From a virus, in the IMG/VR virus record IMGVR_UViG_3300036770_005084, positions 62,001 through 126,000 of that record: 64,000 nucleotides of DNA; one strand, 5' to 3'. The position numbers and the translations under genes were made by a program. A model generated the notes under the pieces. The model saw only the letters and a list, made by a program, of their open reading frames with translations, made no database searches and was not told the origin of the DNA. The first letter of the stretch is position 1; every line of letters starts with the position of its first letter. Positions 1,918 through 62,900 of this stretch are shown here, piece by piece.

Positions 1918-2924
1918 TGGATTTTTTAAAAGATATTGTTAAAGAAATTGGAGGAGAATACACACAACTTGCTGCAGACATTGATGAAACAGAAACTTAT
2001 GTTGACACAGGTTCATACATTTTTAATGCATTGGTTTCAGGTAGTGTATTTGGTGGTGTATCTGGGAATAAGATTACTGCTATTGCTGGAGAGTCTAGCA
2101 CTGGAAAAACTTTCTTCAGTCTCGCTGTTGTTAAGAACTTCCTTGATAATAATCCCGATGGGTATTGTCTCTATTTTGATACTGAGGCTGCTGTAACCAA
2201 ATCTTTATTGCAAAGTAGGGGTTTGGATATTACAAGAATTGTTGTTGTGAATGTAGTAACAATTGAAGAATTTCGTTCAAAGGCACTTAAGGCAGTAGAT
2301 TTATATCTAAAGAAGAAAGAAGCAGAACGTAAACCATGTATGTTTGTTCTTGATTCTCTTGGAATGCTTTCTACTGAGAAAGAAATTGATGATGCTTTAA
2401 ATGAAAAGCAAGTTAGGGATATGACTAAATCTCAACTTGTCAAAGGTGCATTCCGGATGCTAACCTTGAAACTGGGGCAGGCAAAAATTCCAATGATTGT
2501 CACTAACCATACCTATGATGTTGTTGGTTCTTATATTCCCACTAAAGAAATGAGTGGTGGATCTGGACTTAAATATTCTGCTTCTACAATCATTTATCTC
2601 TCTAAGAAAAAAGAGAAGGATGGAACTGAAGTCGTTGGAAATATTATTAAAGCAACCACTCACAAATCTCGTTTAAGTAAAGAAAATAAAACAGTCGAAT
2701 TACGTTTGTATTACGATGAACGTGGTCTGGACAAATACTATGGTTTGTTAGAACTAGCAGAAAAGTATGAAATCTTTGTAAAATCTGGTACTAGATATCA
2801 AGTTCCGGACGGAACTTCTCAATATGGTAAAACTATTATGGAGAATCCTGAAAAATATTTTACTGAAGACGTAATGCAAGCATTGGATGAAGCAGCACAA
2901 AAAGAATTTTCGTATGGAGGATGA
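1917..2924 (+). CDS. uvsX: UvsX RecA-like recombinase
   Basis: Strand-exchange protein of the T4 UvsX/RecA family, which forms filaments on ssDNA and drives recombination-dependent replication and repair. 335 residues. Walker A is GESSTGKT (residues 58-65); Walker B is in [10 protein letters not shown] with the aspartate near 146. I chose ATG 1917 over the in-frame TTG at 1914 because a strong AAGGAGG ends four bases before 1917. The stop overlaps the gp41 start (ATGA at 2921). The gp43, uvsX, gp41 neighbourhood fits a recombination/replication role. No intein is seen in this gene, although uvsX is a known intein site in some phages. Confidence 0.95.
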
Positions 2925-3550
2925 TGGAAAGGGTTGAAACTACAATTCTCAGAAACTTAATCTTCAATGACAACTATTGCAGAAAAGTTTTACCTTTTAT
3001 TAAAAATGAATATTTTGAAGAGATTGATGAACGGGTAATATTTGAAGAGATTTGTAAATTTATTCTTTCCTATGATAATCTTGCTACAAAAGAAGTAATT
3101 TTAATCGAAACTGAAAATAGAACAGATATCACAGAAGATATCTATAAGAAAATCTGTGATTATATTACTTCCTTAGATGATATATCTGTAGATCAGCAAT
3201 GGTTAATTGATACAACAGAAAAGTGGTGTAGAGATCGGGCAATATATCTTGCACTGATGGAAAGCATCAAAATTGCTGATGGGCAAGATGAGAAAAAAAG
3301 TAGAGATTCCATTCCATCAATATTGCAAAATGCACTTGCTGTAAGTTTTGATGACCATATTGGTCATGATTATTTGAATGATTACTTAGAACGATATGAG
3401 ACATACCACAGAAAAGAAGACAAAATTCCGTTTGATTTGGAATATTTTAATAAAGTTACGAAAGGTGGTTTACCTAATAAGACTCTCAATATCGCTCTTG
3501 CTGGTTGTGTTCATCCAGAAACCAAAGTTAAAATTAGGTTTAAAAAATAA
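2921..3550 (+). CDS. gp41: gp41 replicative helicase, N-terminal half fused to a 14-residue intein N-fragment
   Basis: N-terminal half of the T4 gp41 (DnaB-like) helicase: residues 1-195 are extein and end TLNIALAG, exactly where T4 gp41 enters its P-loop. Then a Cys begins a 14-residue intein N-fragment ([14 protein letters not shown]) and a stop. The missing C-terminal half lies at 4654-5829 behind an intein C-fragment; trans-splicing would join ALAG to TGVGKS and rebuild the Walker A motif. Joined exteins would be about 461 residues, close to T4 gp41 (475). The start overlaps the uvsX stop; ATG 2924 is an equally possible start. Alone, this half has no nucleotide-binding loop and should be inactive as a helicase. 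Confidence 0.93.
3506..3547 (+). other. split intein N-fragment (14 residues)
   Basis: Starts with the canonical Cys1 (TGT at 3506) directly after extein sequence ALAG and encodes [14 protein letters not shown] before TAA. The block A pattern (C, then a short hydrophobic strand KVKI) fits an intein N-terminus. At 14 residues it is far shorter than the roughly 90-100 residue N-fragments of gp41-1 or DnaE split inteins, and resembles the atypically split inteins with very short N-parts. Confidence 0.85.
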
Positions 3551-3556
3551 TAAATA
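3550..3556 (+). promoter_or_regulatory. late promoter motif ATAAATA (metallopeptidase gene)
   Basis: ATAAATA matches the T4-like/cyanophage late promoter core. It lies just after the stop of the gp41 N-half and 20 bases before the GTG start at 3577, so it could give the nested metallopeptidase gene its own late transcription. Confidence 0.5.
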
Positions 3557-3576
3557 ATTTAAATGGAACAATAAAA

Positions 3577-3948
3577 GTGTATTTCAAGGAGTTTTTATTA
3601 GAATCCAAAAAAAGTTCAATATCTCATTTTTTGGCGTTTATAAAAAAAGAATTAAAACTATCTAATTTACCTAAAATTATTATAATAGATGATCCAAAAT
3701 TTTCAATAGTTAATAAAACTTTTGGAACATTTGATATTGATGATAATTGTATTAGAATACAAGTTTCTAAAAGACATAAATTGGATATTTTTAGAACTCT
3801 TGCTCACGAAATAATTCATTATAATCAAAGAAAAAGTGGAAAAGAACTTAATGGTAATGATGGGAGTGTAGATGAAAATGAAGCAAACTCAAGGGCAGCA
3901 GTTATATTGAGAAAATATACAAAAATTATTGATAATCACGGTTATTAA
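3577..3948 (+). CDS. small HExxH metallopeptidase-like protein nested between split-intein halves
   Basis: A 123-residue protein with a zincin motif HEIIH within TLAHEIIHYNQRKSG (about residues 77-90) and a downstream glutamate-rich DENEA that could supply a third zinc ligand. This resembles small SprT/ImmA-like phage metallopeptidases; substrate unknown. The start is GTG 3577; the nearby ATG at 3563 hits a stop at once. The N-terminus MYFKEFLLES resembles the T4 capsid-targeting sequence (MKTYQEFIxEA), so it may be packaged and clipped by the prohead protease (inference). It is tail-to-tail with the antisense HNH gene (4-base overlap) and preceded by a late promoter motif. Its place inside a split intein locus is unusual. 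Confidence 0.72.
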   Translation: MYFKEFLLESKKSSISHFLAFIKKELKLSNLPKIIIIDDPKFSIVNKTFGTFDIDDNCIRIQVSKRHKLDIFRTLAHEIIHYNQRKSGKELNGNDGSVDENEANSRAAVILRKYTKIIDNHGY

Positions 3949-4613
3949 TTTATTTTTTTAACTTTAGAATTTGGTGCTGGTTCTCCTGTCCCAAATTTCC
4001 ATCCTTCATTTAGTTTAATATCAATATCTTCTGGAGGTATTCTTTTCCATCCCTTTGTCCCCGGTAAGTGCATTACTTTCTTACCTTTGTGTGCTTTTCC
4101 TCCAAGAGATGCTCTTTCTTGTCTTCCTTGATTGGATGCCCAGTAATTAAACTCTTTGGATGCTCTTTTTTTGCCTCCAAGAGATGCTCTTTCTTTTCTG
4201 CCTTCTTCTGTGCTCCAATAATAAAAATTTTTAACTTTATCGTTTAGATATTCTTGTTTTTGAGTTTCTATTCCTCTAATCATCCACTCTTTTCTTTCTT
4301 CTACTGGTGTTGAAAAGAAACCAAGTTGATTATCTCTACAAAACTCTCCTATTATTTTTCTATGTTGTGGTGATAAATTCGCACCTAACATTTTCATAGA
4401 CCTCAAATCATTTGGATTTTTATAAATCTTCCAAAGTAAATAATGTGCTATGATATGTTCTCTAACATTCAAGTATGTAAGGTTGCAATCATCATCTGTT
4501 CCTCCCATATGTTTAGGAACAATATGATGCTCGTGTAGTCCTGAATATTTCTTATAGTTTTCTCTTCTTGACTTATTACCTTCGCATAAGTTAGAATAGA
4601 TACGATCAAACAT
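3945..4613 (-). CDS. HNH homing endonuclease between the gp41 halves
   Basis: 222 residues on the minus strand. The N-terminal HNH domain reads LHEHHIVPKHMGGTDDDCN followed by NLTYLNVREHIIAHYLLWKIY (about residues 26-63), with catalytic HH, N and H. The C-terminal part holds two repeats of GR(K/Q)ERASLGGK and a positively charged tail, as in DNA-recognition modules of phage-borne homing enzymes. It sits between the halves of the split-intein-interrupted gp41, the place expected for an endonuclease that cuts intein-less gp41 alleles. A perfect TATAAATA late motif (4649-4642, minus strand) lies 28 bases upstream of its start. Recognition of the gp41 P-loop site is inference. Confidence 0.88.
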   Translation of the reverse strand: MFDRIYSNLCEGNKSRRENYKKYSGLHEHHIVPKHMGGTDDDCNLTYLNVREHIIAHYLLWKIYKNPNDLRSMKMLGANLSPQHRKIIGEFCRDNQLGFFSTPVEERKEWMIRGIETQKQEYLNDKVKNFYYWSTEEGRKERASLGGKKRASKEFNYWASNQGRQERASLGGKAHKGKKVMHLPGTKGWKRIPPEDIDIKLNEGWKFGTGEPAPNSKVKKIN

Positions 4614-4641
4614 TCCCTGTCCCTGCTACTGCTAATACTAT

Positions 4642-4649
4642 TATTTATA
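4642..4649 (-). promoter_or_regulatory. late promoter TATAAATA for the HNH gene
   Basis: The plus-strand bases read TATTTATA, so the minus strand carries the full late consensus TATAAATA, 28 bases upstream of the HNH start at 4613. It is only a few bases before the plus-strand start of the gp41 C-half (4654). Confidence 0.6.
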
Positions 4650-4653
4650 CAAA

Positions 4654-5028
4654 ATGTGGATTGAAAAAGAAACATCAATTACTGAAATCAAAACATTACT
4701 TGATAATGGATATGAGGTAGAAGTTGATTCGCCTGATGGATATGTTCCAGTCAATTTCTTTATTAACAAAGGAATGTATGATGAATATGTTTTAAAGGTT
4801 GATGGTGAAGAACCCATTAGGTGTAATGCCGATCATTTATTTGAAACATCTTTTGGGTGGATGAAAGCATCGCATCTTTGTGGAAAATATCAAACAAATC
4901 ATTTTCTAACGAAGAATGGTTATAAACTTGGTAGTGTTTTTAAAACGGGAAATCAAATACCTATTGTTGATATTAATGTAAATCATCCAAATCATAGGTA
5001 TTATACTAATCAAGTTTCTTCTCATAAT
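4654..5028 (+). other. split intein C-fragment (125 residues)
   Basis: Contains most of the HINT fold: block B-like IRCNADHLFETSFGW (about residues 55-69, with the block B His), block F IPIVDINVNHPNHRYYTN (about 102-119) and block G NQVSSHN with the canonical penultimate His and terminal Asn. The usual block B Thr is Asn here (NADH). The following residue is Thr. Together with the 14-residue N-part the intein totals 139 residues, a normal mini-intein size without an endonuclease domain. Confidence 0.88.
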
Positions 5029-5829
5029 ACTGGTGTCGGGAAATCTTTATTCATGTGCCACATGGCTAGCTCCGTCCTCTTGCAGGGGAGGAACGTTCTC
5101 TACATTACACTTGAAATGGCAGAGGATAGGATTGCTGAAAGAATTGATGCAAACCTACTAAATGTAAATATTAAAGATATCCCAGATCTGAGTAAAAATA
5201 TATTTGAGAAAAAGATTAATAATCTAATTAGTAAGACAAGTGGGAAGTTAGTCATTAAGGAATATCCAACTGGATCTGCTCATACTGGTCACTTTAAAGC
5301 ACTTTTGAATGAACTATCACTAAAGAAATCCTTTAGACCAGATATTATCTTTATTGACTATCTAAATATTTGTTCTTCTTCTAGATATAAAAGCAACTTC
5401 TCTGTAAATTCATATAGTTATATTAAAGCAATTGCAGAAGAATTGCGTGGTCTGGCAGTAGAATTTAATGTTCCTATTGTATCGGCAACGCAAACAACAC
5501 GAAGTGGATATGGTAATTCTGATGTTGAACTAACGGACACTAGTGAATCTTTCGGTCTTCCAGCAACTGCAGATCTAATGTTTGCTCTCATTAGTACTGA
5601 AGAGTTGGAAAATCTTGGACAGATTATGGTAAAACAATTAAAGAATCGTTACAATGATCCAACCGTCAATAAAAGGTTTGTGATTGGTATTGACCGTGCA
5701 AAAATGCGGTTGTATGATTGTGAACAATCTGCTCAGCAAGATATACTTGACTCTGGACAAGATGAAGAGTATGATACTGAAGAGCATTCTAATTCAAAAA
5801 GAAAATTCGCAGGGTTTAATTTTTCATGA
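4654..5829 (+). CDS. gp41: gp41 replicative helicase, intein C-fragment plus C-terminal half
   Basis: 391 residues: 1-125 are the intein C-fragment, 126-391 the C-extein with the ATPase core of gp41. The join is SSHN then TGVGKS, so Thr is the +1 nucleophile and the extein begins with the second part of the Walker A loop. Later helicase features are present: YITLEMAEDRIAERIDAN, the Walker B region PDIIFIDYLNICSSSRY, and QTTRSGYG, all aligning with T4 gp41. An in-frame TAA lies 21 bases upstream and ATG 4654 is the first start; no clear ribosome-binding site is seen. The stop overlaps mazG (ATGA at 5826). Helicase function needs trans-splicing with the product of 2921-3550. Confidence 0.94.
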   Translation: MWIEKETSITEIKTLLDNGYEVEVDSPDGYVPVNFFINKGMYDEYVLKVDGEEPIRCNADHLFETSFGWMKASHLCGKYQTNHFLTKNGYKLGSVFKTGNQIPIVDINVNHPNHRYYTNQVSSHNTGVGKSLFMCHMASSVLLQGRNVLYITLEMAEDRIAERIDANLLNVNIKDIPDLSKNIFEKKINNLISKTSGKLVIKEYPTGSAHTGHFKALLNELSLKKSFRPDIIFIDYLNICSSSRYKSNFSVNSYSYIKAIAEELRGLAVEFNVPIVSATQTTRSGYGNSDVELTDTSESFGLPATADLMFALISTEELENLGQIMVKQLKNRYNDPTVNKRFVIGIDRAKMRLYDCEQSAQQDILDSGQDEEYDTEEHSNSKRKFAGFNFS

Positions 5830-59939: not shown

Positions 59940-62900
59940 ATGGCTTTAGCGAGATTAGAAAATTTCCTTAAAAATTTAAGAGGAAATACTTTATATGTAG
60001 ACCCTAATCAATTGGATGCATCAGATTCAATTGAAAATAGAGGTAACTCTGCGTTAAGACCATTTAAGACCATTCAAAGAGCACTTTTAGAAGCAGTAAG
60101 ATTTTCATACGTACAAGGAAATAATAACGATCTTTTCGATCAAACCACTATTCTAATTTCTCCTGGAACTCACTATATTGATAATAGACCAGGGCATTAT
60201 GTAAGTGGATCAATAATTAAAAACTATTCTGGTGGAAATTCTTCAATTCCAGAACTAGATTTGCAAAGTAATTTTAATATTACTGATTCCGATAACGTAT
60301 TATATCCATATAACAGTGCCGAAGGTGGGGTAATAGTACCTAAAGGAGTTTCATTGGTAGCAACAGATCTTAGAAAAACTAAGATTAGACCATTATATGT
60401 TCCAGACCCAACTAATGATCTTATTCCAAGATCTGCAATATTTAGAGTCACCGGAGGTTGTTATATATTTGGATTTTCCATTTTAGATGGAGATCCAAAT
60501 GGAAATGTATATTATAATCCAGCAAGTGTAACAAAAGTTGTTCCTAGTTATTCTCACCATAAACTAACTGCATTTGAGTATGCAGATGGAAAGAATAATC
60601 TGGTAAGAGTTGGAACAAATCTAGGTAAAACAGACCTAGATATGTATTACTATAAAATATCTCTAGGATATGGAAATAGTGCTGGTGCTCCAGTAATTAT
60701 TGATGGATATGATGATCTACAACTAAACATAGAAGAAACAAGAATAGTTGGAGATCTTGGTCGTGGATCTATAGTAATTGAAAACATTTATGCAGGTGAT
60801 GGAGTTAATTCTTCAAACGTAATTACTGTAAAGACCGCATCTGACCATGGATTTTCCCCACTAACATCGATTTTAATTTCTGGGGTGGGATCAAATCTTC
60901 AGCAGCAAGCAGAGTATAATGGACCATTTACAGTTGCTCAGGTTATTAGTTCTACTGAGTTCACATACAGATTGACAAATGATCCAGAATCATCTCTAAA
61001 TCCTGGAATTGATAGTCTTTCCAATGTAAAATCTGTATCAGACACAGTATCATCTGGTTCTCCATACGTATTTAATTGTAGTCTTAAATCTGTTTATGGC
61101 ATGAATGGTCTTCATGCAGATGGTAATAAGGCAACTGGATTTAAGAGTATAGTTACTGCACAGTTTACAGGTATTTCATTACAAAAAGATGATAGGGCAT
61201 TTGTAATTTATAATGATGCTTCTGGTTCATATAATGATTTTACTTTTGCAGGTGAAAATACATTTCTACATCAAAATTCTAGATCAATTTATAATCCAGA
61301 GTGGGAAAGTTTTCATATAAAAGCATCAAATGATGCGTTTATTCAGTGTGTTTCAATTTTTGCCATTGGATATGCAAAGCAGTTTATTGCTGATGATGGT
61401 GGAGACCAAAGCATTACTAACTCAAACAGTAATTTCGGTGCTATAGCACTTTCCTCTAGAGGATTTAAGGATTATGAGTTAGCAAAAGATAATCATGGTT
61501 TTATTACTCATATTATTCCTCCAAAAGAAATTAGTGAAGAAGAAATTATTGTAAGATGTTTACCAATAGATGTAGAATCAACTACAACAAGGGGATTAAG
61601 TAATAATTATACAAGGATTTATTTAGATGGATATGATAATGCATTAGATCCACCAAAAACATCTTTCCGTGGATATAAATTGGGTGGGAAATTAAATGAC
61701 ACTATAAATTATACTAATGATGGTGTTGTTTATAGTGCTATAGTATCACCAAATTATAAAACTGAAGTAACTGTAACCAATATAACATCAAGTGTTTTTA
61801 CAATAGATACACCACTTACAATAGGGTCAGTTACTGGCATTAATACTTCTCAAGCAGTTAGAATTATTTCAAATGATGGACTATTGCCAGATGGGTTAGA
61901 GCATCATAGACTTTATTATATTAATGGAGAGACTAATCTAACAACCACTACATTTACTTTATCTGAAAATATATTTAATAGTACTGTTAGTGATTCTATT
62001 GTAGAAATTAAAAATCAAATAGGAGCAACTTCTAATAATTTAAAACTTGTAAGTAAAGTATCTGATAGATCTGCCGGACAACCAGCATCACCAGTTCAAT
62101 ATGACACAATAAATGGTCAATGGTATGTTCAAATTATATCAAATGCGGCATTTATTAGTGCTATGAATGGAATAGGTGCGATTACATTTTATATTGAAAG
62201 AGCACTAGATTCTAGAGAAATTAAAGACAAAATTTATAAAGCAAGATATGTAATACCTAAGGAATCTATTGGAGCATCTGCACCATCAATTGGATTTATT
62301 CTTCAAAATTCTACAAGTGGTATAAGTTCTGCGTTAACATTGCCATCTTCTTCTATTTCTGATATAGATGAAACTAGAAATTCAAATCAAATTATAGATG
62401 CCTGGGCATCGTATAGTCCAGGATTTACCAGTTATGCATATGTAAGAACTAAATATCCACACAAATTATTTCCAGGATGTAAGGTAAACATATATGATCT
62501 CAAGAGTTCTAATGAACCAAACCCAGTAGGTTTAGGGACTGGAACTGGATTTAACGGTTCATTTATTGTCGATCTTGTTCCAAATGATGTTGTTTTCAGA
62601 TATCAAATTCTTGCAAATCCTGGAAATATAACTACAATTGATGATACTGCTATAACTACTTGGTTAATTTCAAATGATTGTAATGAGGCAACATTTAGGG
62701 TTCCTCCATATACAGTTTCTGAAGATACTAATGTTAGATCAAATCTTCCATATTTTACATGTGAAAAGGTATTTAATGATTATCAAATATATGGAGTAGA
62801 TACAATTCAAGAGTATAATTATGGAGTTTCAGATGGTGTCTATCATTTAACTTTAAATGCATTTAAAAATAGACCCAGTGTATTTCCATTCAATATAGAG

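Follow-up and report, generated by a model that had tools for sequence, protein, structure and literature searches.

The gp41 helicase genes of some phages are reportedly cut in two by split inteins and hold a free-standing endonuclease gene in the gap; these are the 'fractured genes' ascribed to Dassa et al. in 2009, namely gp41-1 and its relatives. An atypical split, directly after strand beta2 of the intein (position S1), is found in VidaL and PolB16, whose N-terminal parts (IntN) comprise 16 and 15 amino acids (aa), respectively (PMC13014065, 2026). The 15-aa IntN of the PolB16 OarG intein, a natural S1 split, has been called the shortest characterised (PMC10189870), and an engineered IntN of 11 aa is functional in another intein (PMC13014065). 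Here we describe a gp41 gene cut by an intein with an IntN of 14 aa, found in a 64,000-nucleotide (nt) window spanning positions 62001–126000 of a 155-kb uncultivated virus record (IMGVR_UViG_3300036770_005084), which belongs to a cyanobacterial virus. We are highly confident that the two gp41 halves are made separately and rejoined by a trans-splicing split intein, that a mobile insert holds the split apart, and that insert and intein both move by homing.

In the window, gp41 is encoded as two genes, an N-half at 2921–3550 (209 aa) and a C-half at 4654–5829 (391 aa), with the cut point inside the Walker A motif of the helicase (ALAG^TGVGKS, where the caret marks the cut). From the stop codon of IntN to the ATG of the C-terminal intein part (IntC) there are 1103 bp, which hold two open reading frames (ORFs; Table 1). 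This layout agreed base for base with a first-pass annotation of the window, which had described ALAG followed by 14 residues and a stop and then, after a gap of ~1.1 kb, a 125-residue IntC running to VSSHN and TGVGKS. Without the intein residues, the exteins (195 and 266 aa) abut exactly to give a 461-aa gp41 that is colinear with, and 76% identical to, the uninterrupted 459-aa gp41 of Synechococcus phage S-SRM01. The assignment to DnaB-like helicases came from PHROG for both exteins and from Pfam for the C-extein. In S-SRM01 and S-BM3 the uninterrupted gp41 runs contiguously through ALAGTGVGKS, showing that the host site also exists without an insertion. Each gp41 half is present once in the 155-kb record, and searches of that record found no uninterrupted or second gp41. 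When we searched IMG/VR with IntC, 80 contigs encoded it, and in all 80 the remainder of the gp41 Walker A motif lay downstream. The split gp41 of the window is a single metagenomic record, as it would be if the split were a sequencing or assembly artefact, but the same arrangement in more than 50 other contigs makes this explanation scarcely credible, and we rejected it.

Six of the contigs (L043–L048) contain the same intein unbroken within a single gp41 reading frame, ending in SSHN followed by TGVGKS; an exact junction scan found no further contiguous alleles. The IntC portion of these contiguous siblings is 98.9% identical to that of split alleles, and as a natural control they show that one domain comprises both the 14 aa at the end of the window's N-half and the 125 aa that open its C-half. 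We modelled the 142-aa contiguous intein of L044, which is 84% identical to the window IntC, using AlphaFold (predicted local distance difference test score, 87.5). The model has the HINT fold that the first-pass annotation had expected, and its best match in the Protein Data Bank (PDB) was the VidaL intein (E 1e-11, template-modelling (TM) score 0.86, root-mean-square deviation 1.7 Å, 30% identity), followed by other inteins; VidaL was also the best match in a sequence search (E 2e-12). Strand beta2 occupies residues 7–13 of the model, and the 14-aa IntN still contains it. The residues needed for splicing are present (Cys1, block-B H78, H141, N142 and Thr+1), and among 24 aligned sequences the block-B His78, block F, His141-Asn142 and other core residues are invariant. 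The median pairwise ratio of nonsynonymous to synonymous substitution rates (dN/dS) was 0.31 for IntC (45 distinct sequences, with non-independent pairs), compared with 0.12 for the C-extein, for which few pairs were usable.

Two ORFs, a short IntN ending just after beta2 and an IntC with its own start together form the atypical (S1) split layout of the VidaL type. Like the window intein, VidaL (PDB 6VGV/6VGW) is a Cys1-dependent class 1 mini-intein with a short IntN, split at S1 between residues 16 and 17, and an IntC that starts with Met; placing its published 16-aa IntN on its chain puts the IntN end at KKG and the IntC start at Met17, which is the split point of the window (PMC13014065). 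The two differ in sequence (~30% identity) and in IntN length (16 aa in VidaL, 14 aa in the window), and for the gp41 Walker A intein the genomic context, the HNH and cargo genes and the contiguous siblings are visible as well. The contiguous siblings, the VidaL-like fold and the invariant catalytic residues, with this dN/dS, therefore identify the window intein as a new branch of the VidaL-type atypically split inteins, located in a 'fractured gene'.

The insert is located exactly where the reading frame of the siblings is continuous, which is also what one would see if an RNA intron or ribosome bypass gave rise to one continuous gp41–intein protein that was then spliced in cis. We regard this as highly improbable, because the insert consists of an opposite-strand gene and a variable cargo, and because four alleles without any insert (L028, L029, L069 and L071) keep a stop codon and a separate ATG. 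Rfam reported no group I or II intron at E <= 1, and the intron reading was rejected for want of a match. With an unbroken sibling at the same site, a HINT fold nearest VidaL, retained catalytic residues and no intron-type RNA found, the split-intein reading of the first-pass annotation held up.

Several points nevertheless weigh against this reading. The intein profile TIGR01443 gave no match, and Pfam Intein_splicing matched just 3 of 24 members (best, 0.0022); curated intein profiles thus largely miss this family. The AlphaFold model covers the contiguous sibling rather than the IntN and IntC of the window as two chains. Moreover, the 14-aa IntN lacks residues 15 and 16, which are found in most relatives (the IntN has 16 aa at 34 of 64 split loci), and judging from this sequence the window allele might splice poorly. 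An extreme version of this concern is that the intein is decaying, such that the 14-aa allele, which is shorter than the commonest form, has stopped splicing and a different helicase has taken the place of gp41. We consider such decay very unlikely, given that the record yielded no second gp41, that exteins and intein are intact and under purifying selection, and that L007 also has a 14-aa IntN. The claim that an IntN of this size is near the minimum was borne out in part: 14 aa is one residue below the shortest characterised natural IntN (15 aa), but it is only slightly below the known 15–16 aa and stands at the low end of the family's own range of 14–23 aa.

In the trans-splicing mechanism that we favour, the two gp41 halves would be translated separately, and IntN (strands beta1–beta2) would dock on the 125-aa IntC, which supplies the remaining HINT fold. 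Once assembled, this intein, which is of class 1 (Cys1, block-B His, terminal His-Asn and Thr+1), would excise itself and join ALAG to TGVGKS, restoring Walker A and hence the only replicative helicase of its kind found in the record. The mobile insert, which in the window comprises the HNH gene with its own late-type promoter and the cargo gene, would keep the halves apart, and insert and intein would spread between phages by homing. The 14-aa form is predicted to splice, and the unspliced gp41 halves would presumably be inactive. Since any DNA may separate the two halves without impeding trans-splicing, further genes would find the gap a permissive place to insert.

The first-pass annotation had noted two genes between the halves, and these proved to be a mobile HNH endonuclease gene, which is almost constant within the family, and a cargo gene that can be exchanged. 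Free-standing HNH genes lie between gp41 halves at 57 loci. A search of IMG/VR with the HNH protein gave 77 loci, and all 15 that we checked (L140–L154, with identity down to 41%) also have gp41 coding parts with the cut at this site, which we count in support of the trans-splicing and homing reading. At 55 of the 57 loci the late-promoter-like TATAAATA lies 26–40 bases upstream of the HNH gene. The late-promoter motif occurs at 9 sites in the whole window versus 12.4 expected, no more commonly than by chance, and the evidence for it therefore lies solely in its being conserved at the start of the HNH gene. Probably the HNH gene is expressed late and drives homing, for which its product would cut the uninserted allele. 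In cargo alleles the region upstream of the cargo supplies the end of IntN and its stop, and 16 of 21 loci have a late-promoter-like NATAAATA on or close to that stop. This origin of the IntN end explains why IntN varies in length; in the window, FKK-TAA overlapping AATAAATA accounts for the 14 aa.

In IMG/VR the window cargo ORF turned up in just three contigs, each time at the split gp41 locus. Cargo ORFs of nine loci (L002, L005, L008, L010, L011, L013, L019, L020 and L027) often begin with M[DN]xQ[ED][FIL]R[SNA]LQEAY.EV or F..F[LI].E, and the starts of the window ORFs at 3577 and 7305 look similar. T4 head proteins have short capsid-targeting leaders with an LxE cleavage motif; by analogy, cargo ORFs with such starts resemble these leaders and may encode head-packaged proteins.

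Other HNH arrangements were also seen. L062 has an HNH-like ORF on the + strand (gap positions 34–687) at the same split point, compared with the opposite strand at the other loci. A second HNH subtype (MFNQIHH..., with an N-border of the R[SC]AI type) occurs in L009, L021, L055, L061, L065 and L066 together with two different IntC clades, and its HNH proteins are 94% identical where IntC is 69% identical; L055 has the second-subtype border, yet its HNH is just 57% identical to that of L061. In L039 and L040, remnants of the HNH start and tail-fibre-like genes precede the IntC–gp41 half, and the 16.5-kb L040 contig is without a gp41 N-half, which suggests that the two halves may lie far apart.

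Identity profiles change sharply where the intein begins and ends, a pattern that bears indirectly on cutting of the uninserted allele by the endonuclease. For the window compared with L007, IntC is 92.5% identical in nt, and HNH and cargo are 95% and 99% identical in aa, versus only 74–75% in nt for the gp41 exteins; between L031 and L032, IntC is identical and the exteins are 75–82% identical. That the element is so much more alike than its exteins argues for recent mobility. Compared with L058, the window has an HNH of 91% and a cargo of 95% aa identity but an IntC of only 70%, indicating that the insert between the halves is also mobile independently of the intein.

A census of 81 loci, including the window, placed HNH alone between the halves at 39, HNH plus cargo at 18, and nothing at 4; 6 were contiguous, 3 were of other kinds, and 11 were truncated at a contig end or could not be assigned for other reasons. 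The 64 split loci had IntN lengths of 14 (n = 2, the window and L007), 15 (n = 1), 16 (n = 34), 17 (n = 16), 18 (n = 7) and 19–23 aa (n = 4). At the DNA level, HNH-only alleles read ..AAGATTTCTTGA.. at one border and ..AT^GTGGATTG at the other, and the contiguous allele reads AAGATTTCTTG^GTGGATTG, its junction sequence being CTTGGTGGATTG. In two alleles without an insert (L028 and L029), bases matching the 3′ border of HNH in other alleles (TTGATTATGGAATTT) stand before IntC. These bases are a deletion scar, left when the HNH gene disappeared from an already split gp41 whose halves remained separate (TGA, then ATG). The two further splits without an insert are L071 (TAATG) and L069 (overlapping frames). 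One insertion site is thus seen contiguous, split without an insert, split with HNH, and split with HNH and exchangeable cargo, a series that is new.

The contiguous rows differ by ~1% from split L031 and L032 and group with them (Shimodaira–Hasegawa-like approximate likelihood-ratio support 100). In VidaL and in the distant relatives with both borders readable (L062, L075, L076, L078 and L140–L154), the split lies at the same position or directly beside it, so by parsimony the contiguous form is derived through one change, and it is most simply a re-fused split intein. Alternatively, the contiguous allele could be ancestral, with HNH genes having split one target site repeatedly. The contiguous junction, CTTG^GTGGATTG, does equal both insert borders, as expected for an uninvaded target, and the approximately unbiased test does not reject a placement of these rows at the base of the in-group (p 0.64), nor does it fix their position relative to the in-group root. 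Set against the readable outgroups, the homologous HNH genes at the same split point down to 41% identity and the single change required by parsimony, we regard repeated splitting as unlikely, though it deserves more weight than the alternatives above. Re-fusion fits a life cycle at one site that we somewhat favour, in which a mobile endonuclease gene splits the intein just after beta2, cargo with late promoters rides in the gap, loss of the endonuclease leaves adjoining halves, and one lineage re-fuses to a cis-splicing intein; some phages would add gp41-1, so that a three-piece helicase would need two trans-splicing reactions by unrelated split types.

Nine loci (L012, L022, L034, L043, L045–L047, L049 and L071) have an additional intein N-part at TRSG[YF]^S[SN]SDV, which in L043 matches the gp41-1 intein (E 5e-52). 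A gp41-1-type IntC lies further downstream in eight of the nine; the L071 contig ends first. In L022 (2808–4015) and L034 the P-loop intein is also split, leaving the gp41 coding sequence in three pieces. Nothing interrupts the gp41-1 site of the window (TTRSGYGNSDV).

The resemblance to phage gp41 split inteins claimed by the first-pass annotation holds for the fractured gene, cut in two around an endonuclease gene as reported for gp41-1, but does not extend to the site (TRSGY^SSSDV for gp41-1, Walker A here), the type of split (canonical versus atypical), the opposite-strand HNH of the window or the nearest solved relative, VidaL. PolB16 OarG differs in being cysteine-less, in residing in a DNA polymerase, in its weak fold match (TM 0.54) and in an IntN one residue longer. 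Among the matches listed in 50,697 phage records there were only distant UvsX and TerL inteins (<34% identity) and no isolated cyanophage with a gp41 Walker A intein, and tblastn found no relatives in bacterial genomes. The split UvsX of Pseudomonas phages PAC2/PA5oct has a similar Walker A insertion (AGESG^SGKS), a 17-aa IntN (CLPETAKVKIRLSKKQS), a 34% identical IntC and an ORF between the halves, but the host gene is UvsX and the intervening ORF, which had no PHROG match, is on the same strand. In these cultivated phages (L084, PP408249.1, 760–3766) UvsX is split in the P-loop by a VidaL-like intein, where the annotation gives only two RecA-like ORFs with a hypothetical protein between them (477 aa, motif YGNFWHAD); for the relative MIJ3, the one in PolB is the only intein that the published paper reports.

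The source of VidaL is presumably a T4-like helicase found in a lake metagenome. The intein family at the gp41 Walker A site is new; if the source gene of VidaL is gp41 cut at the same site, the site itself is not, and the allele series still is, according to the searched literature, in which a 12-residue protein string had no occurrence. As far as that literature shows, the co-occurrence in one population of contiguous, split, cargo-bearing and doubly fractured alleles is also new.

Table 1. Features of the split gp41 locus, in window coordinates.
Feature	Position	Strand	Evidence
gp41 N-extein, 195 aa, ending ...NIALAG inside Walker A	2921..3505	+	phrog_19 DnaB-like helicase 4.6e-44; colinear with S-SRM01 gp41
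IntN, 14 aa, Cys1, beta1-beta2	3506..3547	+	no break after the homologous residues of contiguous siblings L043-L048; modelled beta strand, residues 7-13
N-half stop codon TAA	3548..3550	+	overlaps late-promoter-like AATAAATA (3549-3556), 28 nt before cargo start
Cargo ORF, 123 aa, GTG start, HEIIH motif	3577..3948	+	weak metallopeptidase likeness (PHROG metallo-protease 1e-4)
HNH homing endonuclease gene, 222 aa	3945..4613	-	phrog_655 homing endonuclease 1.3e-16; homologues in same split gp41 intein
TATAAATA, late-promoter-like, upstream of HNH gene	4642..4649	-	found in 55/57 HNH loci
IntC, 125 aa, MWIEKE...VSSHN; block B NADH, block F NHPNHRYYT, C-terminal His-Asn	4654..5028	+	closest solved structure VidaL 6VGV
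gp41 C-extein, 266 aa, starting TGVGKS (remaining Walker A), +1 residue Thr	5029..5826	+	DnaB_C 1.3e-16 (Pfam); phrog_19 2.4e-85

If active, the 14-aa IntN is possibly the shortest natural IntN and would be usable as a minimal splicing tag, with dozens of natural variants of 14–23 aa and an unbroken sibling as control. The near-identical natural alleles make the splitting of an intein, and its possible re-fusion, testable. Exchangeable genes are seen riding inside an essential replication gene, and the breaking and apparent re-joining of an intein can be followed in nature.

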